From positions 1,488,001 to 1,552,000 of the forward strand of contig NC_008048.1 of assembly GCF_000013985.1 (NCBI RefSeq): DNA of 64,000 nucleotides, read 5' to 3'. Positions 8,407 to 38,484 of the stretch are shown piece after piece. The translations under genes and the position numbers were made by a program. The notes below the pieces were generated by a model, which was not told the DNA's origin, made no database searches, and saw nothing but the letters and a program-made list of their open reading frames with translations. The first letter of the stretch is position 1; each line of letters starts with the position of its first letter. Origin of the DNA: Sphingopyxis alaskensis RB2256. GTDB taxonomy: Bacteria; Pseudomonadota; Alphaproteobacteria; Sphingomonadales; Sphingomonadaceae.

Positions 8407-8412
8407 TCCGGC

Positions 8413-14088: not shown

Positions 14089-14357
14089 AGCGCGATGACC
14101 TGATATTGACCCACCGTGACGGAGGCGATTTTGGCCGAGTGCGAGGCGCGAGGAGCGGCGCGATGCGGGACATCGCGCCCGACGAGCAACGTGGCAATCG
14201 GCAAAAATCGACCCGCCCCGGAGGGGTTGCCCCCTGAAGCCCGCCGGACAGCGGCGCGTCTCTGGTCCGGGCAACCAGCCCGTCCTGCGAGACGCTTCTT
14301 GCCGACGAACTTCAGGGGGCAATCACGGTGGGTCAATATCAGGTCATCGCGCTCTAG
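14085..14357. mobile_element. MITE-like element with perfect 35-bp terminal inverted repeats
   Basis: Positions 14085-14119 and 14323-14357 are exact reverse complements (35 of 35). The ends read CTAGAGCGCGATGACC inward, and both outer ends are CTAG, compatible with a 4-bp target duplication (or a TA duplication within it). A second exact inverted repeat, TTGCCCCCTGAAG (14227-14239) and its complement (14310-14322), abuts the right end, and smaller hairpins fill the interior. No transposase is encoded; an 83-codon open frame on the minus strand (14336 to 14085) spans the element but is built largely from the repeats. The element sits exactly on the stop codons of the convergent AlkC-like and penicillin-binding-protein genes. 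The transposase family that moves it is unknown. Confidence 0.85.
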
Positions 14358-16420: not shown

Positions 16421-16477
16421 GCTTGAGGCCGTATTACAACCCCAACACAGCATAGGCAAATGGCTTGTCGGCGCGCG

Positions 16478-21940: not shown

Positions 21941-22110
21941 CAGCCTCTCCCCTTGTTGTGCGCCGATGCGGCGCGACTTTCGGCCGTTCGGCAGCCTTTT
22001 GGCGAGTTTAGGGAGTTGGCGGATCGGGGGTCAAACGGGCGATGGAATCTATCTACGATTTTGTATTTCTTACTTTAATTATTTTGCCGCGTCGACGCGG
22101 AGAGACAAAT

Positions 22111-22128
22111 TGTGCGAAACACCGCATA
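22111..22128. promoter_or_regulatory. Candidate DctD-type binding site 1
   Basis: TGTGCGAAACACCGCATA is an imperfect palindrome built as TGTGC-N7-CGCA. A second copy with the same spacing lies 32 bp (about three helical turns) to the right. It lies in the dctA/dctBD intergenic region, where tandem DctD activator sites occur in rhizobia. Confidence 0.45.
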
Positions 22129-22142
22129 CCAAATCATCAAAG

Positions 22143-22160
22143 TGTGCAACAATCCGCACA
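22143..22160. promoter_or_regulatory. Candidate DctD-type binding site 2
   Basis: TGTGCAACAATCCGCACA has exact 5-bp inverted ends (TGTGC/GCACA). It matches site 1 in 12 of 18 positions, and its last base is the A of the dctB start codon. Binding here could both activate dctA at a distance and limit dctB expression. Confidence 0.5.
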
Positions 22161-23968: not shown

Positions 23969-25302
23969 GTTTCTTCACCGCCGAGCAGACGATCCTTTTC
24001 GTCGACGACGATGCCGCACTGCGCGAAGCGAATGCGCAGACGCTCGACCTTGCGGGCCTTGCGGTCGAAACCTTCGCCGATGCGCAGAGCGTGCTGCCGC
24101 GCATCGCCGCTGATTTCGCCGGGATCGTCATCACCGACATAAGGATGCCCGGCATGGACGGGCTGGAACTGCGCGCCGCGATCCATGCAATCGACCCCGA
24201 CATCCCCGTCGTGCTGATCACCGGGCACGCCGATGTGACGATGGCGGTGCGGGCGCTCCACGACGGGGCGTTCGACTTTCTCGCCAAACCTTTTGCGGCG
24301 GACCATCTGGTCGGCGTCGCGCGCCGCGCGCTCGCGCATCGCGCGCTGATCCTCGACAACCGGCGCCTCACCGCGGCGGCGGCGGCGATCGACAGTCCAC
24401 TGATCGGCGAAAGCCCGGCGATGGTCCGTCTGCGCGAAACGATCGCGCAGCTGGCGCAGGCCGACATCGACGTGCTGATCGAGGGCGAGACGGGGACGGG
24501 CAAGGAACTGGTCGCGCATATGCTCCACCGCCAGAGTCGGCGGAGCGCGGCGTCGCTCGTCGCGGTCAATTGCGCCGCTTTGCCGCACGACCTGGCCGAA
24601 GCCGAACTGTTCGGCAGCAACCTTGTCGACCGCGCGACGGGCAAGCTGGGCCAGGCTGGGCGGATCCGCGGCGCGCATCGCGGGACCTTGTTCCTCGACG
24701 AGATCGACACGATGCACGCGGCGGTGCAGGCGAAGCTGCTGCGCGTGATCGAGGAGCGCGAGGTGCAGCCATTGGGGGCGAGTGCGCCCGAACCCGTCGA
24801 CCTGCGCGTTGTCGCAGCGACCAAGACCGACCTGATGGACGCGGTGCGTGCGGGGGATTTTCGCGAAGACCTTTATTACCGGCTGCACGTCGTCAAGCTG
24901 CGCCTTCCGCCCTTGCGCGAGCGTCGCTCCGACATCCCGCAGACCTTTGCCTTCTTCCTCGACGAGGCGGCGTCGAAAATGGGGCTGACGGGGTTCCAGA
25001 TCGACGACGCCACGCGTCGGCACCTGGTCGAACATGACTGGCCGGGCAACGTCCGCGAGCTCAAGAACTTCGCCTATAGCGTCGTGCTCGACCTGCCCTC
25101 CGACCCCGCGCGTTCGGCGATGCCGGCAGCCGCGCCGCTTGCCGAGCGGCTGCGCCGGTTCGAGGCGACGATCATCGAGGATACGCTCGCCCAGACGCGC
25201 GGCAATATCGGCGAGACGATGGCGCAGCTCGGCGTGCCGCGAAAGACGCTTTACGACAAGATGGCCAAGCTGGGGATCGATCCGAAGCGGTTTCGAGGCT
25301 GA
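23965..25302 (+). CDS. dctD: DctD-like response regulator without a GAFTGA motif
   Basis: A three-domain response regulator (445 aa): receiver with phospho-acceptor Asp58 in VITDIRMPGMDG, AAA+ domain with Walker A GETGTGKE and Walker B GGTLFLDEID-like sequence (HRGTLFLDEID), and a C-terminal Fis-type helix-turn-helix (GNIGETMAQLGVPRKTLYDK). The start overlaps the dctB stop (ATGA). The notable defect is in the AAA+ domain: where DctD/NtrC proteins carry GAFTGA, needed to contact sigma-54, this protein reads ELFGSNLVDRATGKLGQAG. Family knowledge says such proteins often act without sigma-54. It should control the divergent dctA operon; the mechanism is probably not classical. Confidence 0.9.
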   Translation: MSFFTAEQTILFVDDDAALREANAQTLDLAGLAVETFADAQSVLPRIAADFAGIVITDIRMPGMDGLELRAAIHAIDPDIPVVLITGHADVTMAVRALHDGAFDFLAKPFAADHLVGVARRALAHRALILDNRRLTAAAAAIDSPLIGESPAMVRLRETIAQLAQADIDVLIEGETGTGKELVAHMLHRQSRRSAASLVAVNCAALPHDLAEAELFGSNLVDRATGKLGQAGRIRGAHRGTLFLDEIDTMHAAVQAKLLRVIEEREVQPLGASAPEPVDLRVVAATKTDLMDAVRAGDFREDLYYRLHVVKLRLPPLRERRSDIPQTFAFFLDEAASKMGLTGFQIDDATRRHLVEHDWPGNVRELKNFAYSVVLDLPSDPARSAMPAAAPLAERLRRFEATIIEDTLAQTRGNIGETMAQLGVPRKTLYDKMAKLGIDPKRFRG

Positions 25303-25391: not shown

Positions 25392-26570
25392 CTATTTCCC
25401 CTGCGCCGCCAAGATGCGCAGCACGTTGCCGCTCCACATTTTTTCGATGTCGGCGTCCGAATAGCCCGCTTCCTTCAGCCGCGCGGTGACCTTGGGCAGT
25501 GCGGTGATGTCCTCTATGCCCTTCAGGCCGCCGCCGCCGTCCCAGTCGGCGCCGAAGCAGATATGATCGGCGCCCGCGACCGCGATCGCGCGCAGCACCA
25601 TCTTCATATAATCCTCGAAATCGGCGGCCCATAATGGCTCGCTTTGGTCGAGCTCGCGCCATTTGCGGTTGAGGTCGGCCTGCTCGGCCGGGGTCATCGC
25701 GCCGATCCGCTCATATTGGCCGAACAGCCCGGCGCGTGCCGGGGTCATGTTCATGTCCGACAGGAAGATCGTTGAAATGCACATCGCCCCGCCCTTGGCC
25801 GCGAGCGCCTTCAGCCGCGCTTCATCGAGGTTGCGCGGATGATCATGGGCCGAGCGCAGGCTGGAGTGCGAGAGGATGATCGGATATTTCGACAGTTCGA
25901 GCATCTGGTCGAACGCCGCATCCGACGAATGGCTGGCGTCGATGACGATACCCAGCCGGTTCATTTCGGCGACCCAACGCTTGCCGAGCGGGCTCAGTCC
26001 CTTCCAGCGCGCCTCGCCGGTCGCGCTGTCGGCGAACTGGTTGGTCCGCGAATGGACCGGCCCCGCCATGCGCAGGCCCCTGGCGTAAAACTCCGCGAGC
26101 AGCGTCAGATCCTCGCCGAGCGGATAGCTGTTTTCCATCGACTTGAAGGCGATCAGCTTGCCTTCCCTGTTCAGCCTCCTGGCGTCGGCCGCCGTGCGCG
26201 CGGGGGCGATCGCGTCGGGATATTTGGCGAGCGTGCTGTCGATCAGGTCCGAACGCCCCCGCGCAAAGGCGAGGGCGTCGGCATAACCCTTGGCGGTCAG
26301 TGGACCCTGTTCGGTGTAAATGACAAAGAAGCCGCCATCGAGATGGCCGTCCTTCATTCGTGGAATGTCGAGCTGGACCATATCGTCGGCGAGGGTGTGG
26401 CGGTCGGCAAAGCTCCACCCCGCGCGCTCGAAATGGAGCGGCGTGTCAAGATGGGTGTCGAGCACGAGCATCCGGCTGTGCAGCGGGGCTTCGGCTGCCT
26501 TGGGCTTGTCGCCGCCGGTCGAACAGGCGGCGAGCGCGGTCGCGGTCAACAGGATTGCGAGTTGCTTCAC
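25392..26570 (-). CDS. Membrane dipeptidase (peptidase family M19), lipoprotein
   Basis: A zinc dipeptidase of the renal-dipeptidase family (392 aa), which characteristically cleaves dipeptides with a D-residue at the C-terminal side and, in some members, D-acyl amino acids. The lipoprotein signal is MKQLAILLTATALAAC. The first metal motif, DTHLDTPL (H-x-D), and the late GADHICFGADWDG block are present, as is the C-terminal SDADIEKMWSGNVLRILAA. It is the last gene of a minus-strand operon and its start overlaps the preceding serine hydrolase gene by four bases. In this neighbourhood its likely task is to split L-D or D-containing dipeptides in the periplasm. Confidence 0.92.
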   Translation of the reverse strand: MKQLAILLTATALAACSTGGDKPKAAEAPLHSRMLVLDTHLDTPLHFERAGWSFADRHTLADDMVQLDIPRMKDGHLDGGFFVIYTEQGPLTAKGYADALAFARGRSDLIDSTLAKYPDAIAPARTAADARRLNREGKLIAFKSMENSYPLGEDLTLLAEFYARGLRMAGPVHSRTNQFADSATGEARWKGLSPLGKRWVAEMNRLGIVIDASHSSDAAFDQMLELSKYPIILSHSSLRSAHDHPRNLDEARLKALAAKGGAMCISTIFLSDMNMTPARAGLFGQYERIGAMTPAEQADLNRKWRELDQSEPLWAADFEDYMKMVLRAIAVAGADHICFGADWDGGGGLKGIEDITALPKVTARLKEAGYSDADIEKMWSGNVLRILAAQGK

Positions 26571-28138
26571 TTCTTGTCCTCCACGGGCTTCAGGTCGAGA
26601 TCGTGATAATCCCAGCTGAAGTCGGCAATCTTGCTCACCGCTTTCATCGTCACGCCGGTTATCTCGCCATCGGCGTCGAGCGCGAAAGTGACATAGGCGG
26701 GTTCGATCGCCGGGTCGTCGAACCTGGTGACGAAGCTGTCATATTGCCAGTGATCGAGCCGCCCCGCCATCCGCGGCGTCGAAGCAAAATCGATCGTCAA
26801 CCCCTTCCTGTCCGAACCGATCACGACATCGCCATACCAGGGATCGCGGTAGCGCCCGGCATAGCGCGCCAACGCAAGCGAGGGACCGCTCTGCGCTGGC
26901 GAGGCCTTCGACTGTTTCAGAAACTCGACTCCCCCCGCGAGCCCCGACTGATACCAGTCCTCCCATTTCTGGATCCAGCCATAGTCGGGTTGATCGAGAT
27001 AATGGTCGAGCAAATCATAGGTGAGGCCGAGGAGCATCCCGCTATCCTCGCTGTTCATCATGATCGCGAAACCGACTTGTCTGTCGGGGATCAGCACGAC
27101 GCGGGTGATCGACCCGAATACGCCGCCACCATGCTGGATGATGCGATGACCGCGATAATCCTGCACCTGCCAGCCGAGCGCATAGGCCTGCTGCGTCGGC
27201 TGCGCGGGCTTGAGCGCATCGGGCAGCGGGGTGATCGGCATCGGCGTCACCGGCGCCCACATCTCCATCGCCTGCTTTTCACTGAACAGCCGCTTCCCGT
27301 CGGGTAATGCACCATGCGCGAGCTGGATGCGGAGCCACGCCGCCATATCGTCGGCGCTGAGCGCGAGCCCGCCCGCGGGCGCACCGTTGCGGCCCAGCTC
27401 GTCGCGCTCGTCGAGCGTCTGCTGCGGGCCGATGCCGCGCAATGGGCCGGACAGGCGCGCGTGCGGCCAGCTGCGGTTCGGCGTCGCGAAGCGTTCCTCG
27501 CTGTCGCTCGTGGCATTTTTCATGCCGCCCGGACGCAGCACGCGCGCGCGGATGAAATCCTCCCACGTCTGTCCGGTGACTTCCTCGATCAGCTGGCCCG
27601 CGACGGCGTAGAGGATATTGTCATAGGCATAGGCCGAACGGAAACTGGTCTTGGGCTTCAAATAGGCGACGCGCTCGACCGTCTGTTTGCGCGTCAGATG
27701 CGTGCGCGGCACGAACATCAAATCGCCCTGCCCCAGCCCCAGCCCGCTCCTGTGGACGAGCAGGTCGCGGATCGTGATCTCGCGCGTGACCCACGGGTCG
27801 TACATGCGGAACCAGGGCATATGCTGGATGACCGGATCGTCCCAGCCGATCTTGCCTTCATCGACGAGCACGGCGAGCGCCGCCGCGGTCATCGCCTTGC
27901 CGGTCGATCCGGTCTGGAAAATCGTCTCGGCATCGACCGGCGCCGCTTCGCCCAGCTTGCGCACGCCCCAGCCGCGCGCCAGCGTCGTCTTGCCGTCCTC
28001 TACGATCGCGATCGACACGCCCGGCGCGCCGATTTTCTGCCGCAGCGCCTCGACGCTTTCGGCGATGTCGGCGGGCGGTTCGGCCCACGCGGGCATCGCG
28101 AGCGATACGAAGAGCGTGAGGACGAGCAGGCGTTTCAT
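26567..28138 (-). CDS. Exported serine hydrolase, beta-lactamase/DD-peptidase fold
   Basis: A periplasmic serine hydrolase of the class C beta-lactamase/AmpH/D-aminopeptidase fold (523 aa). The signal peptide ends AMPAWAE. The catalytic serine motif is TGSTGK and a Y-x-N equivalent is seen in AYDNILYAV; a late IIQHGGGVFG supplies the H-x-G motif. A C-terminal domain of about 150 residues resembles the lipocalin-like extension found in many such proteins. The ATG at 28138 is used; it overlaps the end of the upstream membrane-protein gene (ATGA). True beta-lactamase activity is unlikely; a D-aminopeptidase or D,D-peptidase role fits the operon (inference). Confidence 0.88.
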   Translation of the reverse strand: MKRLLVLTLFVSLAMPAWAEPPADIAESVEALRQKIGAPGVSIAIVEDGKTTLARGWGVRKLGEAAPVDAETIFQTGSTGKAMTAAALAVLVDEGKIGWDDPVIQHMPWFRMYDPWVTREITIRDLLVHRSGLGLGQGDLMFVPRTHLTRKQTVERVAYLKPKTSFRSAYAYDNILYAVAGQLIEEVTGQTWEDFIRARVLRPGGMKNATSDSEERFATPNRSWPHARLSGPLRGIGPQQTLDERDELGRNGAPAGGLALSADDMAAWLRIQLAHGALPDGKRLFSEKQAMEMWAPVTPMPITPLPDALKPAQPTQQAYALGWQVQDYRGHRIIQHGGGVFGSITRVVLIPDRQVGFAIMMNSEDSGMLLGLTYDLLDHYLDQPDYGWIQKWEDWYQSGLAGGVEFLKQSKASPAQSGPSLALARYAGRYRDPWYGDVVIGSDRKGLTIDFASTPRMAGRLDHWQYDSFVTRFDDPAIEPAYVTFALDADGEITGVTMKAVSKIADFSWDYHDLDLKPVEDKK

Positions 28139-29271
28139 GGCAGGGCCTCCATGGGGGGAGCGGCGGGGCGCAGCAGCCGCCAGGTGCCGATGGTGATGAG
28201 CGGCAGCACGAAAACGGCGAGGAAAAGCCAGGCGAGGAAGCGATAGCCGCTGGCGATGAGGTCGACGAGGCCGACGCGCGCCGCGACGAACATGCAGCCG
28301 ACAAGGATGAGCGAGCCGATCGCCGCGCGCGCGCCGGTGTCGAGCCGCGGGCGCCCACGCGCCTCGACGACGCCCGACACGCGCTCGTTGATCGCATGGA
28401 TCGCGCCGACGCCGCTTTCGAGCAGCGCGGCGAAAATCATCAGCTGGAACAGGATATGAAAGCCCGGCACCGCCATCTGGCGCAGCAGGAAATCGGACGG
28501 CAGCGTCTCGTCGCCGATCGCCGGATAAAAAGCCATCATCGCGGCGAAGAAGAGGATCGCGGGGAGCATCGTGAGCGGCCCGGCGATCAGCCCCGCGACC
28601 ACCGCGTCGCGCTGGCTCGTCAGATGGCGCAGCACGGGCAGGATGATCACCGCGCCGACGATATTGTAACTCGCATAAGTGATGCCGCCCGCCACCCAAT
28701 TGCCCGACGGCGGCGGCGCGTTCGCAAAGCCATTGCCGATCATCTCGCCAAAGCTCGCCAGCGCAAAGACGATGAACAGCGCATAGACCGTATAGATCAG
28801 CATCGAGGCATATTGGAACAATGTCTCGACGATCGCGGTGCCGAAGGCGGTAAAGGCGACGATGCCGAGCGCGAGCAGCACCGACCCTGCAAGCTCGGGC
28901 CAGCCGAAGGTCGCGGCGCCGATCGCCCCCGCCGCCGCGCCAAAGACGGCGAGGATCAGCACGACGAAGATCAGATAGGCGATTTTGAACGCGATCCAGC
29001 CGGGTCCGAGCAGCCCCTCGAAAAAGCGGCGATAATCATAAGCGCGCATCCGCCGCGCGAGCGCGAAGGTGAGTGCGGCGACGCCGCTCCAGATCAGGGT
29101 TGCGAGCAGCATCGCGGCGAGTCCGCCCCATGGCCCCGATGGCACGAAATACTCCGCCAGTTCGCGGCCCGTGGCATAGCCGCCGCCAATGATGACCGCC
29201 TTCAATGCGAAACCGGGCAGCAGGAAGCGCTGGAACCAGCTCGACCTGCCGCCCGTCTCGCCCACGCTCAT
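28135..29271 (-). CDS. YkvI-like polytopic membrane protein, probable transporter
   Basis: An inner-membrane protein of 378 aa with about ten hydrophobic helices. The start LLPGFALKAVIIGGGYATGRELAEYF and the TYASYNIVGAVIILPVLRHL segment are typical of the YkvI family, uncharacterised proteins with the look of the LeuT/APC fold, including a glycine-rich break in the first helix. The ATG at 29271 overlaps the upstream gene's stop (ATGA), and its own end overlaps the next gene, so it is embedded in a tightly coupled operon. A role as importer of an amino acid or dipeptide made available by the periplasmic hydrolases is the natural guess, but no member is known well enough to name a substrate. 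Confidence 0.75.
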   Translation of the reverse strand: MSVGETGGRSSWFQRFLLPGFALKAVIIGGGYATGRELAEYFVPSGPWGGLAAMLLATLIWSGVAALTFALARRMRAYDYRRFFEGLLGPGWIAFKIAYLIFVVLILAVFGAAAGAIGAATFGWPELAGSVLLALGIVAFTAFGTAIVETLFQYASMLIYTVYALFIVFALASFGEMIGNGFANAPPPSGNWVAGGITYASYNIVGAVIILPVLRHLTSQRDAVVAGLIAGPLTMLPAILFFAAMMAFYPAIGDETLPSDFLLRQMAVPGFHILFQLMIFAALLESGVGAIHAINERVSGVVEARGRPRLDTGARAAIGSLILVGCMFVAARVGLVDLIASGYRFLAWLFLAVFVLPLITIGTWRLLRPAAPPMEALP

Positions 29272-30308
29272 GCGAGACAATTTTCGACGAGCGCGTCGAA
29301 GGCGGCGCCGCCGCGGATCGGGTCGGCGACGGGCAGCCCGAGGCGGCGCCTTTCGGCGCCGATCAGCGCCTCGGCCTCGCCCACCCCCATGCTCGACGTA
29401 TTGAGGCTGACCCCGCCGCAGCGGATCGCCGGATTGGTCCGGCTGCCGAGCCGGATCGTCAGGTCGATCACTTCCTCAATGCTGGGAAGCGCAAAGCTTT
29501 CCATGCCGAGGATGACCCTGCGGCTGGGATCGTGGCAAACGACGAAGACGTCGGGCTGGCTGCCGTGGAGCAGGCCGAGCGACACCGCGGCATAGGCGGG
29601 GTTGAAGATCGACCCCTGCCCTTCGATCAGATCCCAATGATCGTCGGGCGCATCGGGGCTCAAAATCTCCGCCGCGCCCGCCTCGAAGTCCGACACGACC
29701 GCGTCCATGGGAATACCGCCGCCCGCGATCATGATCCCCGTCTGCCCCGTCGCGCGGAAATCGGCGTCGATCCCGCGCGCGACAAAGGCGCGGTGCAACG
29801 CAAGCGCGGTATATTTCTTGCCGAGCGCGCAATCGGTGCCGACGGTGAGCAGTCTCTTGCCGCTGCGCTTGCGGCCGTTGCCGATCGGGATCGAGGGCGG
29901 CGGGGTGCGGACGTCGATAAGCCGCTGGCCGGTGTGCCGCGACGCCTCCACCAGCGCGGGAACGCTGGTCAGCCGCGTGTGCAGCCCGCTGATGATGTCG
30001 AGCCCTGCCTCCATCGCCTCGACCAGCGCCGCAACCCAGCTCTCGCTAATCACGCCGCCCTGGTTGGCAACGCCGATCACCAGCGAGCGGGCGCCCGCCG
30101 CGCGCGCTTCGGCGGGCGACAGCCGCGGCAGACCCGCGCTGACGGTGCAGCCCGCGACCCCGAGTTCGCCGACGCAGCGATCGGCCGCCCAGTCGGCGAG
30201 GCCAAAGGCAGTCTTGGCATAGCCCGCCTCGGTCGTATCGCCGAGGAAGAGCAGATAGGGTTGCGGCAGGGTCAGGCTGTCGGCCAGCCTGCCGATGGGC
30301 GCGTTCAT
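29268..30308 (-). CDS. DUF1611 protein, DgcN-like (D-glutamate N-acetyltransferase candidate)
   Basis: A cytoplasmic 346-aa protein of the DUF1611 family. The N-terminal domain begins LPQPYLLFLGDTTEAGYAKT; the C-terminal half has a P-loop-like GTDCALGKKYTALALHRAF and a GQTGIMIAGGGIPMDAVVSD segment characteristic of the family. Members from marine bacteria (DgcN) acetylate D-glutamate using acetyl-CoA, giving N-acetyl-D-glutamate for a partner racemase (DgcA). The start is probably ATG 30308, with GGAG nine bases upstream. It lies 20 bp behind the TonB receptor and overlaps the YkvI-like gene. A DgcA-type partner lies 2.7 kb upstream in a second operon. The assignment is by family and context. 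Confidence 0.8.
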   Translation of the reverse strand: MNAPIGRLADSLTLPQPYLLFLGDTTEAGYAKTAFGLADWAADRCVGELGVAGCTVSAGLPRLSPAEARAAGARSLVIGVANQGGVISESWVAALVEAMEAGLDIISGLHTRLTSVPALVEASRHTGQRLIDVRTPPPSIPIGNGRKRSGKRLLTVGTDCALGKKYTALALHRAFVARGIDADFRATGQTGIMIAGGGIPMDAVVSDFEAGAAEILSPDAPDDHWDLIEGQGSIFNPAYAAVSLGLLHGSQPDVFVVCHDPSRRVILGMESFALPSIEEVIDLTIRLGSRTNPAIRCGGVSLNTSSMGVGEAEALIGAERRRLGLPVADPIRGGAAFDALVENCLA

Positions 30309-30328
30309 GCTGTTCAACTCCAATCCGC

Positions 30329-32530
30329 TCAAAAGCCGGCGGTCAGGGTAGCACCGATCGTCCGTGGCCGGATAACTCCGGTTCCGGCAGCGCCGAACGG
30401 GATGTTTGCCGGCGCCTCCAGCGACGTCTTGCCTTCGCTGTCAGTCAGATTCTTTGCATAAAGCTCGATCGAATATCGTCCGAAATCAACCCCCGCACGC
30501 AGATCGACCACTTCATAGGCCGGCAGATAGCGTTGGCGCCCATTGGCGATACGAAAGGCAAGGTCATAGCCCGCCGGTTGTTTCGACAGGCTGCGCACCG
30601 ATGCGCCGACATAAGCCGTGGTATCGCCGCCGAGTTCCCATTCATAATCGGCGTTCGCGCCGATACTGAATTCAGGGGTATATGGCAGGCGATCACCCGA
30701 CAAGCCGCCGACCAGCGGCGGCGTATCGTCCTTCAGCTTCGCGTTGGTCCACGCGCCGTTGAGCGAGAAGCTAAGCCCCTGTGCGGGACGCAGCGTCGTC
30801 GTGAACTCCACGCCATCGCTCTTGGCCTTGCCGCCATTGAAGTTGACACCGAAATCGTTGACCTGTCCGAACACCTGAATGTCCTTCCAGTCGATGTGGA
30901 AGGCCGCGATATCGATGGAGAAGGTTCGATCGACCGTTTCCGCCTTGAGGCCAAGCTCGTAACTGATCAGCGAGTCCGAGCCATAGGTGGCGATTTCCGG
31001 CGGCGCCCCCGGCGCCAGCACGTTCGGCCCACCGGGACGGAAACCCTTCGCAACGCGCGCATAGATGGTCACGTTGTCACTAACCTCGAACTGCGGGGCG
31101 ACCGAGAAAGTGAAGACGTCTTCGGACGAGCGCGCCTTGGGCAAAGCATTGGGTCCGCCCGCGAGGACGCCGTCGGACACCTGGACGGCGGATTGCTTGT
31201 TGCCACTGTAACGCCCCCCGAAACTGAGGTTGAAACGGTCGCCGAAATGGATCGTGGCGTTGGCGAAGCCTGCGAGTTCGCGATAGCGCGAGTTGATCGT
31301 CGCGACGCCCAGCAGCGGCAACCCGGCGATCGGGGTGAGCGTGCCCGGCTCGACGGCGTTGAAATCCTGGTCAATTAGGCCCCGTTCGCGGGTATAATAG
31401 ACTCCAATGAGCCATTCGAAACGGTCGCTTTCAGGCGATTGCAGGCGCACTTCCTGCGTAAAGCGCTTCACCCGCGTCAGCTGCCCCTGGAAAAAGTCGT
31501 TGGGCGTTCCAAACACCGCTTCGATCAATGCGCCGAACTGCGTCGTAAGATCGCCGCGAAACGATTGCGACAAGGTGCTGTAGCTGGTCGCCGACACGAG
31601 GTTCGCAAAGCCGAGATCGGCATCGACCACCCCGCTGTAGACGCGATAGCGCACATCGGTGAACTCGGGCACGAATTGCGATTGCGACAGGCGCCCGTAT
31701 AGCGTGCGACCCGTCGATGGATCGCTGTCCACGCTGTTCGAGGCATCGGTCTCCAGGTTCTGAAGATAGGCGGCAAGTTGAATCGAGAATGTCTCGCTCG
31801 GCTTGAACAGCACCGAGGCGCGGCCGCCATAGCTTTTCGAACTGTTGATGTCGGACTCGATATCCGCGCCGCCGGTTCCGATAGAGTCGATGAAACCGCC
31901 GAAATCACGATAAAAGCCCGACGCGCGGAGCGCGAGGGTTTCGCCAAGAGGCAGATTGACAACCGCACTGCCAAGATATGATTCATCGCCCCCGGTCGTC
32001 GTTTCAACGCTGCCGCGTGCGCGAACCTCAAAGGCCGAGGTGTCGGGCTTGTTTGTCACATATTTGAGAACACCGCCCATCGAGCTTGAGCCATAGATCG
32101 TGCCCTGCGGTCCTCGCAGCACCTCGATCCGTTCAATGTCGAACGTGTCGAAGTCACCCGCCAGGATCGCGCCGTTGACCAGACCGCTGCTCGACCCAAA
32201 GGTCGTTTCGTCCTGATAGACGGCAACCGTCGAGGCGACGCCGCCGGTGTTGACACCGCGCAATACGAGGCGACCGAAACCCGGCGTCGCCTGATTGAGT
32301 TGCAGGCCGGGGACGAGTTTCAGATAATCCGAGAAATTGGTTGCCTGAATGTTTTCCAGCGCTTCGCCGGATACGACACTGACCGATTGCGGCACGTCGA
32401 TCAATCGCTCTTCGCGCTTTTGCGCCGTCACGACGATGTCACGTTCGTCGCTGCTCGCTTCTTCGGCATAAGCCGGCATCGCAACGGCCATCGCGGCCAG
32501 GCTTGCTGCGCCAAAAAATCCCTTGTTCAT
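30329..32530 (-). CDS. TonB-dependent outer-membrane receptor
   Basis: A receptor of 733 aa. The signal peptide ends AMPAYAEE; a TonB-box-like DERDIVVTAQKREERL follows, then the plug (LKLVPGLQLNQATPGFGRLV and IEVLRGPQGTIYGSSSMGG) and the barrel with a C-terminal phenylalanine (GATLTAGF). The DIVVTAQKREE start is typical of the large sphingomonad receptor group for organic substrates. ATG 32530 is used; it lies only a few bases after the ruined end of a dipeptidase gene. It opens an operon with DgcN-like, YkvI-like, serine hydrolase and dipeptidase genes. Import of peptides or peptidoglycan fragments with D-residues is the most economical reading, but is inferred from neighbours. Confidence 0.92.
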   Translation of the reverse strand: MNKGFFGAASLAAMAVAMPAYAEEASSDERDIVVTAQKREERLIDVPQSVSVVSGEALENIQATNFSDYLKLVPGLQLNQATPGFGRLVLRGVNTGGVASTVAVYQDETTFGSSSGLVNGAILAGDFDTFDIERIEVLRGPQGTIYGSSSMGGVLKYVTNKPDTSAFEVRARGSVETTTGGDESYLGSAVVNLPLGETLALRASGFYRDFGGFIDSIGTGGADIESDINSSKSYGGRASVLFKPSETFSIQLAAYLQNLETDASNSVDSDPSTGRTLYGRLSQSQFVPEFTDVRYRVYSGVVDADLGFANLVSATSYSTLSQSFRGDLTTQFGALIEAVFGTPNDFFQGQLTRVKRFTQEVRLQSPESDRFEWLIGVYYTRERGLIDQDFNAVEPGTLTPIAGLPLLGVATINSRYRELAGFANATIHFGDRFNLSFGGRYSGNKQSAVQVSDGVLAGGPNALPKARSSEDVFTFSVAPQFEVSDNVTIYARVAKGFRPGGPNVLAPGAPPEIATYGSDSLISYELGLKAETVDRTFSIDIAAFHIDWKDIQVFGQVNDFGVNFNGGKAKSDGVEFTTTLRPAQGLSFSLNGAWTNAKLKDDTPPLVGGLSGDRLPYTPEFSIGANADYEWELGGDTTAYVGASVRSLSKQPAGYDLAFRIANGRQRYLPAYEVVDLRAGVDFGRYSIELYAKNLTDSEGKTSLEAPANIPFGAAGTGVIRPRTIGATLTAGF

Positions 32531-32534
32531 GGTC

Positions 32535-32888
32535 TTACCCCCAGAGTTGGGCGAGCAGGCAGCGGACATTGCCACCGAGCACGGCCCGGATATTGTCGTT
32601 CGGTAGTTGCGGCGAATGAGTTCCTCGACGGGGTCGAAGGACTTCAAAGGATAGTCGAAACCGTCGATGGCGATCTTGTCGCGAAAGGCGTAGCTGTCCC
32701 TGTACGCGCGGTACGCGCGTTTCAGCACGGCATGTTCGGGCCGCGGGATCGACCGCGCGGCGCAAACAGGCCTTCGTCGGCGCCGCCGCAAAGGCATGGG
32801 CGCGGTGGCTGATCACCGGCGCGGACAAAGCGACCCCGGCCGCGTCCGCGATCACCGTGCGGCGCGTCATCGGGAATGACGCGGTCAT
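32535..32888 (-). pseudogene. Remnant of a Tat-exported M19-type dipeptidase
   Basis: The minus strand starts with a twin-arginine signal (MTRRTVIADAAGVALSAPV) and ends, just before the receptor start codon, with NDNIRAVLGGNVRCLLAQLW and TAA, a good match to the C-terminus of membrane dipeptidases (D-I-R-x-V-x-GGN-x-x-R-x-L). Between them only about 80 codons remain instead of more than 300, and the reading must change frame: FDYPLKSFDPVEELIRRNY is in another frame and continues into the NDNIRAVLGG frame only after a shift. So a large internal deletion and at least one frameshift have destroyed the gene. It is the first member of the receptor operon and now acts as part of its leader. Confidence 0.55.
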
Positions 32889-32930
32889 TCCAGCCTCCCT
32901 CTCACGAAAATCTCAATTTCGTCACTATTG

Positions 32931-32953
32931 TCCTAATCAGAAAATTGTCAACC
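32931..32953. promoter_or_regulatory. Putative operator/promoter of the receptor operon
   Basis: This 23-bp stretch, containing AGAAAATTGTCAA, matches 36104-36126 at 20 or more of 23 positions. Read on the minus strand it supplies a perfect TTGACA -35 box (32951 to 32946). A weak -10 (AATAGT or ATAGTG) follows. The core CTAATCAG is nearly self-complementary. GTCCTAA (32930-32936) and TTAGGAC (32957-32963) add a flanking inverted repeat. It should drive the dipeptidase remnant-receptor-dgcN operon. Confidence 0.65.
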
Positions 32954-33020
32954 CATTTAGGACATCAAATTGACTTATTTGGCTCGTCACGCCGGGGGGA
33001 CCATTGGGACGGTAGAACGG

Positions 33021-34028
33021 CTAGCCGCCCCAAACCTCAGCCGGACAATGAATCATCCCGTCGCGATACTGCACCCCCGGCACCCGGTCGCGCGCGAGGA
33101 AGGTCGGCCCGTCGAGGTCGACGATGTCGCACAGCTGCCCGACCAGACAGGATGGCGCCATCGACAGGCTGGTCCCCATCATGTTGCCGACCATCACGTC
33201 GAGGCCGAGCGTCTTTGCCTGCCGCGCAATCGCAAGCCCCTCGGTCAACCCGCCGCATTTATCGAGCTTGATGTTCACCATATCGAAGCGCCCGACGAGC
33301 GAGGCGGTGTCGGCGAGCGACAGTGCGCTTTCGTCGGCGACGAAGGGCAAGGGACGCTTCAGCCCGTCGAGATCGGCCTCGCACCCGCGCCCCAGCGGCT
33401 GTTCGAGCTGCGCGACCCCGGCCGCGAGCAGCACGGGCAGCAGGTCGCGCAGCGTTCCGACATCATAGCCCTGATTGGCGTCGACGCCGATCCAGGCGTC
33501 GGGGCGCGCGGCGCGGATCGCCTCGATGCGCGCGACGTCGTCGGCCAGGTCGCCGGTGAGCTTGACCTTGACCGGCGCTTGCACGTCGATCGCCTGCGCC
33601 GCCGCGGCCATTCGCTCGGGCGTATCGGCGCCCAGCGTCAGCGTCGAACGCAGCGCCCTGGGCGCGTCGAGCCCGGCAAGCCGCCACACCGGCTGCCCCG
33701 TCTGCCGGGCTTCGAGCTCCCAGAAGGCGCAGTCGAGCGCGTTGCGTGCGCCGCCCGGCGGCAGGAGATGCTGCAAATCCTCGCGCGTCGCGCCGCGCTC
33801 GATCGCACCCCGCACGCTGGTCGCCTGGCCAAGCATATGCTCGATGTCGTCGCCGAGATAATAGACGCCCGCCCCCTCGCCGCGCCCGACATGTTCGCCG
33901 TCGGAGAGTTCGGCGACGAGCAGCGCGGTTTCGGTGAAGACATGGCCGGAAATGCGGAAGGGCTGGTGGTAGGGAAAGCGCTCGACCCGGAGGTCGAGCG
34001 ACAATTCGCTGCTGCGCCGGATCGCCAT
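33021..34028 (-). CDS. Enolase-superfamily dipeptide epimerase / DgcA-like racemase
   Basis: A 335-aa muconate-lactonising/dipeptide epimerase subgroup enzyme. The catalytic lysine pair is visible as VKVKL (K-x-K) and NIKLDKCGG. Metal ligands lie in GVDANQGYD, QLEQPL and ADES. Near the end DIVDLDGPTF contains a D-x-D motif of the kind used by L-Ala-D/L-Glu epimerases to hold the dipeptide amino group. It could epimerise L-Ala-D-Glu type dipeptides from peptidoglycan, or, as DgcA with DgcN, racemise N-acetyl-D-glutamate. The start ATG 34028 overlaps the upstream serine-hydrolase stop by one base (TGATG), so the two are coupled. No signal peptide; cytoplasmic. Confidence 0.88.
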   Translation of the reverse strand: MAIRRSSELSLDLRVERFPYHQPFRISGHVFTETALLVAELSDGEHVGRGEGAGVYYLGDDIEHMLGQATSVRGAIERGATREDLQHLLPPGGARNALDCAFWELEARQTGQPVWRLAGLDAPRALRSTLTLGADTPERMAAAAQAIDVQAPVKVKLTGDLADDVARIEAIRAARPDAWIGVDANQGYDVGTLRDLLPVLLAAGVAQLEQPLGRGCEADLDGLKRPLPFVADESALSLADTASLVGRFDMVNIKLDKCGGLTEGLAIARQAKTLGLDVMVGNMMGTSLSMAPSCLVGQLCDIVDLDGPTFLARDRVPGVQYRDGMIHCPAEVWGG

Positions 34029-36001
34029 CAATAGACCATCCCGAAGCCATAGAGATGAAAGGCGAGTGTCACCCAGACAAGCACCGCGGCGGCGAGGATC
34101 AGCAGCACCGCGCCGAGCTTCATTGTCCAGCGCCGCTTGTCCTTGATCGAAAACCACAGGTGCCAGCCGCCCGTCGCCAGCAAGCCGAAGGCGGCCAGAG
34201 GGGTCAGGACGCGTAGCAGATGGATGAGCCAGTCGAGCGGGCCGCCGATGCTGCCGATGTCGGCCGTAAAGGCGGCGATCAGCGCAATCCACCCCGCCGC
34301 CGCCGCGAGCACGAGCCAAGCGAAGGCGCGCGACAGGCGATAGGCGCGGAGCGATTTGCCGGTGAGCGCGAAATCCGCCTTGAAGCGGCGCCGCACCAGC
34401 GCGCGCACCGGCCAGGCGAGCGCCGTCAGCAGGATGATCCCGAAGGCGAAGATCAGCGCGGGGTTGAGCCACGCAGCGTTGACGCCGAAAGGTGCGGGTT
34501 CAAAGACCATGAAGGGCGATCCGGGGTCGACGCTCCAGCGCACGACGCGACCGTCGCTGACCTCGGCGGCAAGCCGTTCACCCGTGCCGCTGTCGCGCCA
34601 AACGAAGGGTTCGACCTCCACCCAGTCGCGGGCGCCGGCACCCAGGCCATCGAGCGCCGGAACGCTGATCTTGCCGTCCTCGGTCAGCGAGATCGTTGCC
34701 AGACCCAGCAGACCGAAGAGGCTGAAGAAATTGGTGAAGGAGCCGCGGCTGCTGACATAATTGCCGACCATCATCCTTGCATGGTCGCGGGCGGTCGCGG
34801 CATCGACCTGCGACGGTTTTTCGGGCGGCCCCGGCAGATAGCGGTCGGCGAACTTGTGAAACAGCGCGCTGCGCACCGCGCCCGTTGCCCCATCCCTGCC
34901 CTGCGCATTCATCGACAGGAAAATGCCGATGTCGGATTCGGGGAACAGCCAGAGATAGGAGTGGAACCAGACGGTATCGCCACCGTGCGCGATCGCGCGG
35001 CGTCCATTGACCCATTGTTCGTAGAAACCGAGCGCCATGCTGTTGAGCGGGCCGACGCCGGCGGCCTTGAAATCGTGCATCTGCCGGGCGGTTTCGGGTT
35101 TCAGTATCCCGCCGCCACCGTTCAGGTGCGCGATCATGAACTTCGCCATGTCGGCGCCGCTCGCCGACATGGCACCCGCCGGAGCGGGGATGACCATTTC
35201 AAAGGGCTGCGGCTTGCCGGTAACGTCGGCATAGCCCTTTGCCATATGCGGCGCGAGGCGCGCGGGCAGCGGCTGGCGAAAGGTCGAATGCGTCATGCCG
35301 AGCGGCTTGAAGATCCGGTTCTCGACATAATCGTCAAACCCCTGCCCGCTCACGCGCTCGACGATATACCCCGCGAGCGCCGTCGCATAATTGGAATAGG
35401 CGGGCGTCGTACCGGGCGCGAACACCCGTTCGGGCAGCGCGAGCGGCATCAGCTCTTTCAGTGTCTTCACCGCCTCGGGATCGCTGCTGATCAGGTGGCG
35501 CACCGATTCCTCGAAGCCTGCCGTGTGCGTCATGATGTGGCGCATCGTGATCGGCTTGCCCTCAAAGGGCGGAATCCTGAAATCGAGATAGGCGTTGACG
35601 TCCCTGTCGAGATCGATCTTGCCCGCCTCGACCTGCTGCATCACCGCCGTCCAGGTGATCAGCTTGGACACCGATCCGGGTCGGAAAAGCGTCGTTTCGG
35701 GGAGCACCGGCGCGCGTTTCGCGACGTCCGCAAAACCATAGCCCTTCTGGAGCAGAACCTCGTCGCCACGAACGACGACCACGACCGCGCCAGCAATGCG
35801 TCCGCGTTCGAGCGCATAGGGCAGAAAGCCGTCCATCCACGCCTCGAGATCCTTTGCGTCGAGCGCGGCGGGCGCCGACGCCGCCTTCGGCGCCATGGCT
35901 TCGGCCTTCTTCACGGCCGGTGCGGGCACAGGGCCTTGCGCCGCCAAAGGCAGCGCGGCCAATGCCGTGAGTCCGATCATCATCTTGCGGATGAAACGCA
36001 T
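34028..36001 (-). CDS. Serine hydrolase (beta-lactamase fold) with C-terminal membrane domain
   Basis: A 657-aa protein: signal peptide (MRFIRKMMIGLTALAALPLAA), an alanine/proline linker, a beta-lactamase-fold domain at about residues 55-400, a beta-rich middle part, and four or five hydrophobic helices at the C-terminus (from ALIFAFGIILLTALAWPV). Active-site motifs are GSVSKLI, AYSNYA (Y-x-N) and IAHGGD. ATG 36001 is preceded by AAAAGGGGAAAGCG, a good ribosome-binding region. This architecture puts the hydrolase on the periplasmic face of the inner membrane. Together with the epimerase it forms a two-gene operon whose promoter carries the shared 23-bp motif. A D-aminopeptidase or carboxypeptidase role is inferred. 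Confidence 0.85.
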   Translation of the reverse strand: MRFIRKMMIGLTALAALPLAAQGPVPAPAVKKAEAMAPKAASAPAALDAKDLEAWMDGFLPYALERGRIAGAVVVVVRGDEVLLQKGYGFADVAKRAPVLPETTLFRPGSVSKLITWTAVMQQVEAGKIDLDRDVNAYLDFRIPPFEGKPITMRHIMTHTAGFEESVRHLISSDPEAVKTLKELMPLALPERVFAPGTTPAYSNYATALAGYIVERVSGQGFDDYVENRIFKPLGMTHSTFRQPLPARLAPHMAKGYADVTGKPQPFEMVIPAPAGAMSASGADMAKFMIAHLNGGGGILKPETARQMHDFKAAGVGPLNSMALGFYEQWVNGRRAIAHGGDTVWFHSYLWLFPESDIGIFLSMNAQGRDGATGAVRSALFHKFADRYLPGPPEKPSQVDAATARDHARMMVGNYVSSRGSFTNFFSLFGLLGLATISLTEDGKISVPALDGLGAGARDWVEVEPFVWRDSGTGERLAAEVSDGRVVRWSVDPGSPFMVFEPAPFGVNAAWLNPALIFAFGIILLTALAWPVRALVRRRFKADFALTGKSLRAYRLSRAFAWLVLAAAAGWIALIAAFTADIGSIGGPLDWLIHLLRVLTPLAAFGLLATGGWHLWFSIKDKRRWTMKLGAVLLILAAAVLVWVTLAFHLYGFGMVY

Positions 36002-36103
36002 CGCTTTCCCCTTTTGTCCGGCGCGCCCTGTCACACCTTGCGGCAAGCCGCGCGACCCCTTACCAAGGACTCAGTATAAGTTAACCCAATGGGGACATAA
36101 TGA

Positions 36104-36126
36104 TCCTGATTAGAAAATTGTCAAAC
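36104..36126. promoter_or_regulatory. Putative operator/promoter shared by the divergent hydrolase and XRE genes
   Basis: It is a near-identical copy of 32931-32953. On the minus strand it gives TTGACA (36124 to 36119) followed at 16 bp by CATTAT, a plausible promoter for the serine hydrolase-epimerase operon. It ends five bases before the start of the XRE-cupin regulator gene, so the regulator could control itself and both operons from these sites. Confidence 0.65.
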
Positions 36127-36131
36127 GGGGA

Positions 36132-36764
36132 ATGGAAAAACTGATGGCGGAGCGTGCAACGCCGCCGACGCTCGGCGCGGTGATGAAGGGGATAAGGGCA
36201 CGAAACGGCTGGACGCTCAAGGAGATGAGCGCGAAGTCGGGCATTCCCGTGTCGACATTGTCAAAGGTCGAACATGACCGGCTCACCCTGAGCTATGACA
36301 AGCTCCAGCAGCTCAGCCAGCGGCTCAAGATCCGCATGTCGGACCTGTTTGCCGAGGATGAAGAGGACGCGCCGCGTGTCACGGGACGGCGCAGCATCGC
36401 CGCGATCGAGCGCGCCGCGCGCGTCACCACCGACAATTACGACTATCACTATCTCTGCACCGACCTCCGGCAAAAGCGCATGATCCCGATCCTGACGCGC
36501 ATCCGCGCGCACAGCGCGCGCGAGTTCGGCGAGCTGGTGCGTCACCAGGGCGAGGAGTTCATCTATGTCCTCGAAGGGCGTATCGAGGTGCACAGCGAGT
36601 TTTACGACCCCGTCACGCTCGACGCCGGGCAGGGCATCTATATCGATTCCTCGATGGGCCACGCCTATGTCGTCGCCGACGGCTACGACGAAGCCCTGGT
36701 GCTTGGTGTCTGTTCGAGCGCTGACGAGGGACTGATGGATTCACTAATGAACCTGCACGGCTAA
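36132..36764 (+). CDS. XRE-family regulator with C-terminal cupin domain
   Basis: A 210-aa regulator with an N-terminal lambda-Cro type helix-turn-helix (TLKEMSAKSGIPVSTLSKVE, then HDRLTLSYDKLQQLS) and a C-terminal cupin sensor (VRHQGEEFIYVLEGRIEVHS, then LDAGQGIYIDSSMGHAYV). This domain pair is common in regulators of amino-acid and small-molecule catabolism, the cupin binding the effector. The start is either ATG 36132, which has GGGGA too close, or ATG 36144, with GGAA at a better distance; the longer form is given. It stands between the hydrolase-epimerase operon and the D-aminoacylase-like gene, 22 bp upstream of the latter, and is probably co-transcribed with it. Confidence 0.9.
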   Translation: MEKLMAERATPPTLGAVMKGIRARNGWTLKEMSAKSGIPVSTLSKVEHDRLTLSYDKLQQLSQRLKIRMSDLFAEDEEDAPRVTGRRSIAAIERAARVTTDNYDYHYLCTDLRQKRMIPILTRIRAHSAREFGELVRHQGEEFIYVLEGRIEVHSEFYDPVTLDAGQGIYIDSSMGHAYVVADGYDEALVLGVCSSADEGLMDSLMNLHG

Positions 36765-36786
36765 ACAACCGAAAAGGAAAAAGATA

Positions 36787-38484
36787 ATGGCATCGCCCCG
36801 GCGCTTCGTACCCTCGCTTTGGCTGCTGTACAGCTCGATGCTGCTCGCAGCGCCGGTTGCGGCGCAAACGCCCGCCTATGACGTGATCATTCGCGGCGGG
36901 ACAATCTACGACGGGTCGGGCAAGGCGCCCATCGTGGGCGACGTCGCGATCAAGGGCGACCGGATCGTCGCCGTCGGAACGGTCGGAGGCGATGCGAAAA
37001 GCGAAGTGTCGGCCAGGGGCATGGCGGTCGCGCCGGGTTTCATCAACATGCTGAGCTGGGCAACCGAATCGCTGATCGCCGACCCGAAAAGCCAGAGCGA
37101 CATCCGCCAGGGCGTGACGCTGGAAGTGATGGGCGAAGGCTGGTCGATGGGGCCGATGAACGCGGCGATGAAGGCGCAGGAGACAGCGCGACAGGGCGAC
37201 ATCAAATATGCGATCGAGTGGACGAACCTGGGCGACTATTTGGGCTGGCTCGAAAAGCGCGGCATTTCGACCAATGTGGCGAGCTTCGTCGGCGCCGCGA
37301 CGGTGCGCGTTCATGAACTGGGCGAAGGCGACGTCGACCCGACGCCCGATCAGCTGGACCGGATGCGCGCGCTGGTGCGGCAGGCCATGAACGAAGGCGC
37401 GATGGGCGTCGGCAGTTCGCTCATCTATGCCCCCGGCTCCTACGCCGAAACCGACGAATTGGTCGCATTGACCAGCGAGGCGGCGAAATGCGGCGGCATG
37501 TATATCAGCCATATGCGTTCCGAAGGCGACCGGATCGAGGAGGCGGTCGATGAGCTGATCGAGATTTCGCGCCGGTCGGGCGCGCCCGCGGAAATCTATC
37601 ACCTCAAAATGGCGGGGCGCAGCAATTGGGACAAGCTCGACACCATCGTGAAGAAAATCGAGGATGCGCGCGGCGAAGGGCTGCGCATCACGACCGACAT
37701 GTACACTTACACCGCGGGCGCCACCGGGCTCGACGCCGCGATGCCGACCTGGGTGCAGGCGGGCGGGCTGGAGCAATGGATCGAGCGGCTGAAAGACCCC
37801 GCAATCCGCGCGCGCGTTGCCGAGGAAATGAAAAAGCCGGGCAGGGACTGGGAAAACCTCTATTACGGCGCGGGCGCCGACAAGATGATCCTGTCGGGAT
37901 TCAAGAATGACGCGCTGAAGCCGCTCACCGGCAAGACGCTCGCCGAAGTCGCTGCGATGCGCGGCAAGTCGCCCGAAGAGACGGCGATGGACCTGGTCAT
38001 CGAGGACGGCTCGCGCGTCGGCACCGTCTATTTCCTGATGTCCGAGGATAATGTCCGCAGGCAGATCCAGCTCCCGTGGATGAGCTTCGGCTCCGACGCG
38101 GCATCGCAGGCGACCGAGGGCATTTTCCTGAAATCGGGCGCCCACCCGCGCACCTATGGCAATTTCGCGCGTCTGCTCGGTCGCTATGTCCGCGATGAAG
38201 AGCTGATCCCGCTCGAACAGGCGGTGTACCGGCTCACAACCCTGCCCGCGACCAATCTGGGCCTTCCCGATCGCGGTGCCCTGAAACCCGGCTATTATGC
38301 CGATGTCGTCGTGTTCGATCCCGCGACGGTCGCCGACCGTTCGACCTTCGAGCAACCGCATCGATATTCGGTCGGCGTGCGCGATGTGTTCGTGAACGGC
38401 ACACAGGTGCTGAAAGATGGCGAGCATAGCGGGGCGACGCCGGGACGCGCGGTGCGCGGGCGTGGCTGGAACCGCTGCCCCTAG
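36787..38484 (+). CDS. Exported D-aminoacylase-like amidohydrolase with altered metal motifs
   Basis: A 565-aa amidohydrolase of the N-acyl-D-amino-acid deacylase group with a signal peptide ending APVAAQ. Family landmarks are VIIRGGTIYDGSGKAPIVGD, GVGSSLIYAPGSYA, YISHMRSEGDRIEEAVDELI and AEIYHLK; the two histidines in the last two correspond to metal ligands. However, the usual GFID-x-H-x-H-x-D is replaced by GFINMLSWATESL, and the GNCG segment that provides a cysteine ligand reads GEGWSMGP. The metal site must therefore differ from the classical enzymes. GGAAAAAGATA precedes the ATG. It probably hydrolyses N-acyl- or peptidyl-D-amino acids in the periplasm; the exact substrate is unknown. 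Confidence 0.85.
   Translation: MASPRRFVPSLWLLYSSMLLAAPVAAQTPAYDVIIRGGTIYDGSGKAPIVGDVAIKGDRIVAVGTVGGDAKSEVSARGMAVAPGFINMLSWATESLIADPKSQSDIRQGVTLEVMGEGWSMGPMNAAMKAQETARQGDIKYAIEWTNLGDYLGWLEKRGISTNVASFVGAATVRVHELGEGDVDPTPDQLDRMRALVRQAMNEGAMGVGSSLIYAPGSYAETDELVALTSEAAKCGGMYISHMRSEGDRIEEAVDELIEISRRSGAPAEIYHLKMAGRSNWDKLDTIVKKIEDARGEGLRITTDMYTYTAGATGLDAAMPTWVQAGGLEQWIERLKDPAIRARVAEEMKKPGRDWENLYYGAGADKMILSGFKNDALKPLTGKTLAEVAAMRGKSPEETAMDLVIEDGSRVGTVYFLMSEDNVRRQIQLPWMSFGSDAASQATEGIFLKSGAHPRTYGNFARLLGRYVRDEELIPLEQAVYRLTTLPATNLGLPDRGALKPGYYADVVVFDPATVADRSTFEQPHRYSVGVRDVFVNGTQVLKDGEHSGATPGRAVRGRGWNRCP

Follow-up and report, generated by a model that had tools for sequence, protein, structure and literature searches.

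A conserved three-unit locus of Sphingopyxis alaskensis with DgcN- and DgcA-like enzymes, a predicted YkvI-family permease and a probable role in the use of D-amino-acid-containing peptides

The DNA described here is a window of 64,000 nucleotides (G000:C2:1488001-1552000) within the 3.37 Mb genome of Sphingopyxis alaskensis RB2256. According to the open reading frame map, Pfam and NCBIfam, positions 25392-38484 of the window are filled by nine genes in three transcription units (Table 1). Operon A (minus strand) consists of genes for a TonB-dependent receptor, a DgcN-like protein, a YkvI-like membrane protein, the serine hydrolase SH1 and an M19 dipeptidase. Operon B (minus strand) encodes a second serine hydrolase, SH2, and a DgcA-like epimerase, and operon C (plus strand) an XRE-cupin regulator followed by a D-aminoacylase-like amidohydrolase. 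We consider it somewhat more probable than not that the three units form a regulon which scavenges and catabolises D-amino-acid-containing peptides, using a sibling of the known N-acetylate-then-racemise pathway which acts on a non-acidic D-amino acid.

A first-pass annotation of the same DNA had proposed a system for harvesting D-amino-acid peptides or D-glutamate. About half of this scheme stands: the locus is a conserved unit, apparently under common regulation, which combines exported peptide hydrolases and a permease with the fold of amino-acid transporters with a cytosolic pair of DgcN/DgcA-like enzymes. The proposed D-Glu or L-Ala-D-Glu substrate is not supported and the deacylase step is doubtful, as discussed below. 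The described gene arrangement is confirmed. In operon A the genes lie where they had been placed and the 4-bp overlaps DgcN/YkvI, YkvI/SH1 and SH1/M19 are firm, but the receptor/DgcN overlap is present only if the dgcN-like gene starts at TTG. The coupling of SH2 to the epimerase-like gene is confirmed as a 1-bp overlap, and the regulator and amidohydrolase are found side by side at 36132-38484, with Pfam support for both families.

It is important to consider how far the gene set is conserved. Of the 60 genus genomes, 46 have a clade-A DgcN (at least 84 %). Loci of 16-20 kb were taken from 40 of the 45 that remain beside the window genome, 5 being left out. The order SH2-DgcA-receptor-DgcN-YkvI-SH1-M19 is kept across these 40 loci, apart from L044, where DgcA is missing, and L054, whose receptor has no tblastn similarity. 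SH2, DgcN, YkvI, SH1 and M19 occur in 40/40, DgcA in 39, the regulator in 38 (it is missing from L055 and L058), a tblastn-similar receptor in 39 and an amidohydrolase orthologue in 27. This recurrence is not chance. Among 80 genus genomes, YkvI-A (at least 77 %) is present in 58; DgcA-A (at least 76 %) accompanies it in 56 of these and occurs in none of the 22 genomes without YkvI-A.

A scan of the named genomes with the YkvI alignment gave at least 391 confirmed places, of which the best 80 were kept; genes were counted within 10 kb of YkvI, and the matches can be paralogues. In these best 80 loci the counts are SH2 76, DgcN 74, regulator 74, DgcA 70, SH1 63, M19 61, receptor 57 and amidohydrolase 45, the other 6 loci having no DgcN within 10 kb. 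Twenty-two of the 80 repeat earlier loci, and the 58 new ones contain DgcN in 52, DgcA in 49 and the receptor in 40 cases. Records of Pelagerythrobacter, Altererythrobacter, Sphingomonas, Novosphingobium, Niveispirillum, Rudaea, Arenimonas, Pseudoxanthomonas and Lysobacter are included. Besides Sphingopyxis, other sphingomonads and a small number of Lysobacterales have the gene set together. The first-pass annotation had named separate conservation of the genes as the outcome that would speak against it, and this outcome did not occur. A full-text literature search, in which most papers were judged by titles and abstract openings, returned no description of this gene set. Elsewhere in Sphingopyxis genomes (L072-L088), parallel units of regulator, SH2, DgcN (69-74 %), YkvI, amidohydrolase and DgcA are found, and other such units combine DgcN with M19, S12 and, in L083, S15 peptidases. 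Among the matches listed, the DgcN family reaches six per genome in G082 and five in G033.

The units share a 21-bp promoter/operator-like element, TCCTRATYAGAAAATTGTCAA, a feature which had been missed earlier. In a pattern search of the whole genome (up to 3 mismatches) it occurs only at the two places given in Table 1, and the reversed control pattern occurs at none. Both copies carry on the minus strand a sigma-70-like promoter whose TTGACA is followed by a 16-bp spacer. The core CTRATYAG, which is self-complementary, sits in this spacer, a frequent binding position of repressors. With up to 4 mismatches allowed, exactly two copies are found in 40/40 clade-A loci; of 17 clade-B loci, 10 have one copy and 7 none, and in clades C/D the element is found in 0/23. 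The named loci have at least one copy in 73/80 and at least two in 53/80, while a single block shuffle of every locus, used as control, gave no copy. Since the element lies only before the receptor operon and in the divergent promoter of regulator and hydrolase, the three transcription units probably form one regulon. We infer that the XRE-cupin protein binds the element; its match to the PuuR model is far under the cut-off.

The DgcN-like protein has the DUF1611_N/_C domains and the P-loop GTDCxxGK (Pfam; alignment with PDB 7xrj), and it matches NF041892 over nearly its full length with 448.9 bits, below the equivalog cut-off of 480. The DgcA-like protein has the KxK motif and acidic metal ligands of the enolase superfamily (alignment with 1jpd and 4gfi) and scores 365.1 bits with NF042940, below the equivalog cut-off of 400; with the YcjG model NF011708 it reaches 234.9 bits (cut-off 343). 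The 7xrj segment passes NF041892 with 541.4 bits, and a sister species has a separate adjacent dgcN-dgcA copy (L103) above both cut-offs (518.3 and 425.4 bits). By the tests made, the window pair are not members of the D-Glu equivalogs. A DgcN passing the cut-off was found in 41 of 299 genomes across the phylum. At least 42 of the 60 genus genomes have a further DgcN copy of 50-55 % identity, and 12 such copies (L100-L111) have the canonical residues in 9 cases and not in 3. The window genome encodes no DUF1611 protein besides this one. It has a second DgcA/YcjG-like epimerase (L112:3549-4511), which scores 387 with the DgcA model and 290 with the YcjG model, both below cut-off; one is also found in G002, a genome without a DgcN match.

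The residue differences point in the same direction. Arg255 is kept in ten canonical DgcN sequences (L103-L111 and 7xrj) and is replaced by Leu in 41 clade-A proteins. It is one of 53 positions that differ between the canonical and window-clade proteins and was singled out because a basic residue is lost. Among 40 loci drawn by the DgcN model (L194-L233), Arg is present at 255 in 37; of the three without it, L224 and L225 are below the DgcN cut-off and L233 is above. Canonical DgcA copies and YcjG have RG.(R/K) in the 20s loop, while the window protein has ISGHVF, in which these basic residues (not an official family criterion) are absent. His253 seemed as good as Arg255 in the ten sequences and was rejected, being His in only 38 of 47 copies with Arg255.

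The two arginines were then compared over pairs. There were 196 DgcN copies with 21 repeats; of the remaining 175, 21 had no DgcA within 9 kb. In the 174 copies with DgcA within 9 kb, both enzymes have Arg in 45, neither in 128 (2 with a gap at the DgcA position) and one pair is discordant; without the 21 duplicates, the 154 pairs divide into 45, 108 and 1. The discordant pair is that of L233, with a DgcN over the cut-off, Asp at 255 and a DgcA with an unusual loop. On a DgcN tree of 100 rows Arg255 needs 2 changes, so the link between the enzymes is essentially one deep split, and the idea of repeated co-variation was dropped. YkvI lies near 0 of 47 Arg255-type DgcN copies and 129 of 149 others (duplicates included), a sample biased by the use of YkvI to fetch 80 of the loci and by the short length (about 4 kb) of L194-L223.

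In epimerases the 20s-loop Arg presumably meets the Glu side chain. A search of PMC3605383 for residue terms gave no match. In the alignment, the T. maritima epimerase has Gly in this loop like the window protein, while the B. subtilis L-Ala-D/L-Glu enzyme keeps Arg. For the T. maritima enzyme, the part of PMC5808125 used here describes high activity on L-Ala-D/L-Phe, Tyr and His. The side-chain pocket of the window enzymes thus seems, judged from these alignments, to differ from that of the D-Glu pathway enzymes, and a non-acidic D-amino acid with a neutral, amide or aromatic side chain is a more likely substrate than D-Glu. In PMC12363236 (in part) dgcN is linked to acidic D-amino acids and the amides of these, so that D-Gln or D-Asn are also possible substrates.

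Both exported serine hydrolases have the three motifs of family S12: SxxK78, YxN172 and HGG336 in SH1, which has a signal-like N-terminus, and SxxK110, YxN202 and HGG339 in SH2, which has four hydrophobic segments at its C-terminus. Their PDB relatives include many beta-lactamases and esterases, and also D-peptidases. The M19 protein is over the gathering score of PF01244, and its HxD, Glu, His, His and Asp, which we take to be the metal ligands, align with those of 2rag. Judged by eye from their N-termini, the receptor, SH1, SH2, the amidohydrolase and, with a lipobox, M19 appear to be exported, and the DgcN-like and DgcA-like proteins and the regulator appear to be cytosolic.

The deacylase step which had been assigned to the D-aminoacylase-like protein is doubtful. 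This protein does not have the complete metal site (Cys/His/His plus HxH) of subtype V deacylases: HxH is absent in all 28 orthologues including that of the window, and the two later His and the Asp are kept. The Cys column is without Cys in all 68 related amidohydrolases compared, so the HxH is the telling loss. In PpOngB, the replacements His68Ala and His70Ala abolish activity (PMC12017989, in part).

For the YkvI-like protein neither Pfam nor NCBIfam gives a match; its relatives carry the name YkvI in their source records. Its predicted structure has an APC/LeuT-type fold, so a transporter of this fold is predicted; SLC7A10, BasC and ApcT appear among the fold relatives at 8-11 % identity. 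Literature under the name YkvI, judged by titles, contained nothing on its substrate.

The exchange of the receptor and the decay of a second M19 gene are two further features which the first-pass annotation had missed. The receptors of 41 loci fall into three multi-member types (22, 10 including the window, and 6) and three singletons, with identities of 80-98 % within types and 37-61 % between five types (one representative each, singleton L054 left out). On the tree of six neighbouring proteins the types need 12 changes, where the least possible is 5 and the shuffled mean is 17.3. None of 200 shuffles was as low as 12, and so inheritance also accounts for part of the type distribution. Three different types are found in the window and its two sisters. 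In the DNA comparison of the window with L032, the flanking genes are 81-95 % identical and most of the receptor is not alignable. The receptor gene is repeatedly exchanged inside an otherwise conserved operon. Three genomes were searched for a donor of the alternative receptor; beyond the same-locus receptor (41 %), the best own-genome match of the L032 receptor was 34 %. Between DgcA and the receptor lies M19', in which residues 1-75 and 317-380 remain and about 240 residues between them are gone (tblastn with the L032 gene). This second M19 gene has a tblastn match at this place in 34 of the 40 clade-A loci and in none of the other 6; it was seen open in L032 only.

In the proposed mechanism, the TonB receptor would bring the ligand across the outer membrane, and SH1, SH2 and M19 would cut it in the periplasm to release a free D-amino acid. 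The YkvI-family permease could carry this into the cytosol, where the DgcN-like enzyme would N-acetylate it and the DgcA-like enzyme would convert the N-acetyl-D-amino acid to the L form. A housekeeping deacylase would then open the N-acetyl-L-amino acid. The XRE-cupin protein is probably a sensor of substrate or product, and would repress from the 21-bp element overlapping both promoters.

Several points weigh against this proposal. S12, M19 and TonB receptors are large families with many members unrelated to D-residues, and no N-acetyl-L-amino-acid deacylase is encoded among the nine genes. The fold relatives of YkvI also include NRAMP, KCC and choline transporters. Arg255 was chosen after the fact among the differing positions, its role being deduced from conservation, and its link with the DgcA loop represents one event and not many. 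The specificity of DgcN may also be broader than the residues suggest, given the acidic and amide substrates mentioned in the part of PMC12363236 seen.

It is necessary to compare this proposal with other explanations. Harvesting of D-Glu, or of L-Ala-D-Glu from muropeptides, by ordinary DgcN/DgcA chemistry would agree with the nearly full-length match to the DgcN model and the 365.1 bits for DgcA, with the lack of another DUF1611 protein in the genome and with the second Lys of KxK, which is present in 175/175 aligned sequences. We regard it as unlikely, for both proteins are below the cut-offs that the separate pair of the sister species passes, and each is without the Arg kept in canonical pairs. 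Relatives often have a further DgcN copy, canonical in 9 of the 12 fetched, and the window genome has another epimerase. As a weak indication, Table 2 of PMC4912152 gives his, leu and lys, and not glu, as the amino acids on which three Sphingopyxis isolates were recovered.

Alternatively, the epimerase could act on imported dipeptides (L-Xaa-D-Yaa) like the T. maritima and E. coli enzymes, with the DgcN-like protein acting separately. The dipeptide epimerases of the enolase superfamily are close relatives, the 20s loop resembles that of the broad T. maritima enzyme, and M19 and S12 hydrolases imply peptides; yet the window epimerase scores higher with the DgcA model than with the YcjG model, and DgcN is near in 68 of the 70 DgcA-bearing loci among the best 80 YkvI loci, which makes this possibility quite improbable. 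Least probable, and by a considerable degree improbable in itself, is that the unit detoxifies D-residue peptide antibiotics or D-amino acids without a feeding role. A dedicated receptor and permease would import the ligand, racemisation is catabolic in form and no efflux gene is among the nine, even though the S12 relatives include beta-lactamases and D-peptidases and the receptor exchange could reflect selection by phage or toxic ligands just as well as a change of substrate. Microcystin degradation was also considered and rejected: MlrC_C (PF07171) has no match in the own genome, a weak result since the control was also without match anywhere.

Table 1. Positions of the genes and elements of the locus in the window
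Feature	Position	Strand	Evidence and remarks
TonB-dependent receptor, 733 aa	30329-32530	-	Pfam TonB receptor barrel and Plug; first intact gene of operon A; exchanged gene
DgcN-like (DUF1611)	29268-30332 (TTG) or 29268-30308 (ATG)	-	Pfam DUF1611_N/_C; NF041892 448.9 bits; best PDB relative 7xrj
YkvI-family membrane protein	28135-29271	-	Name of relatives; predicted APC/LeuT fold
SH1, exported S12 serine hydrolase	26567-28138	-	Pfam Beta-lactamase and DUF3471; S12 motifs; PDB relatives
M19 dipeptidase, apparent lipoprotein	25392-26570 (GTG start)	-	PF01244 300.8 bits; 2rag 417.6 bits; LAAC box read from sequence
M19', decayed second M19 gene	~32538-32888	-	tblastn with L032 gene; locus map
SH2, exported S12 serine hydrolase	34028-36001	-	Pfam Beta-lactamase; four C-terminal hydrophobic segments; S12 motifs; PDB relatives
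DgcA-like racemase/epimerase, enolase superfamily, altered 20s loop	33021-34028	-	Pfam MR_MLE N/C; NF042940 365.1 bits; alignment
XRE-cupin regulator	36132-36764	+	Pfam HTH_3 and Cupin_2
D-aminoacylase-like amidohydrolase, altered metal site, accessory	36787-38484	+	Pfam Amidohydro_3; PDB relatives 1rjp, 3gip
21-bp element, copy 1	32931-32951	+	Upstream of operon A; minus strand begins with TTGACA of promoter-like site
21-bp element, copy 2	36104-36124	+	XRE/SH2 divergent promoter; 7 bp short of XRE start

The unit is adjoined at 20600-25302 by genes which we take to be dctA, dctB and dctD (SDF dicarboxylate symporter, sensor kinase and sigma-54 response regulator), and dctBD is at the same position in some relatives. 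An RND efflux operon (membrane fusion, AcrB-type and outer-membrane factor proteins) and a transglycosylase/transpeptidase penicillin-binding protein are located at 7276-12985 and 14354-16453. Scans with Rfam and for tRNA genes found nothing in the window.

According to the parts of PMC10845958 and PMC12363236 used here, D-amino acids form a fraction of dissolved organic matter that is hard to degrade. In the papers covered, the substrates described for DgcN-DgcA chemistry are limited to D-Glu, other acidic D-amino acids and the amides of these. We tentatively suggest that the locus represents an undescribed sibling of the DgcN-DgcA pathway for non-acidic D-amino acids, combined under one operator with D-peptide hydrolases, a YkvI permease for D-amino acids and a TonB receptor exchanged between species like a cassette, in sphingomonads and some Lysobacterales. 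If this is true, such a route, equipped with its own uptake chain, would widen this chemistry and the YkvI family would gain a function. The regulator with its defined 21-bp target would serve as a handle for tests, and the locus would be a case of a catabolic operon in which only the receptor is exchanged while the enzymes stay.

The closest known system is the DgcN-DgcA pathway of D-glutamate catabolism (Yu et al. 2023, ISME J), known here through parts of PMC12363236, PMC10845958 and PMC11747546 and through the NCBIfam models. Both systems have a homologous DUF1611 N-acetyltransferase and an enolase-superfamily racemase, and probably the same two-step chemistry. However, the window proteins are below the equivalog cut-offs, an Arg is lost in each, and dgcN and dgcA are in separate operons; the YkvI permease, the receptor, the S12 and M19 hydrolases and the XRE-cupin operator are additions. 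The epimerases YcjG, YkfB and that of T. maritima share the fold family and the KxK motif with the window protein, and the T. maritima enzyme also has a similar 20s loop. The window protein differs from YcjG in its score (234.9 against a cut-off of 343 bits) and in the nearby DgcN-like gene of the YkvI loci. The amidohydrolase belongs to the sequence family of the N-acyl-D-amino-acid deacylases (A. faecalis 1rjp, the N-acyl-D-glutamate deacylase 3gip and subtype V amidohydrolases) but differs in its missing HxH and in the Cys column. The YkvI-like protein, finally, resembles the APC-superfamily amino-acid transporters SLC7A10, BasC and ApcT in its predicted fold, although the identity in the fold alignments is low.

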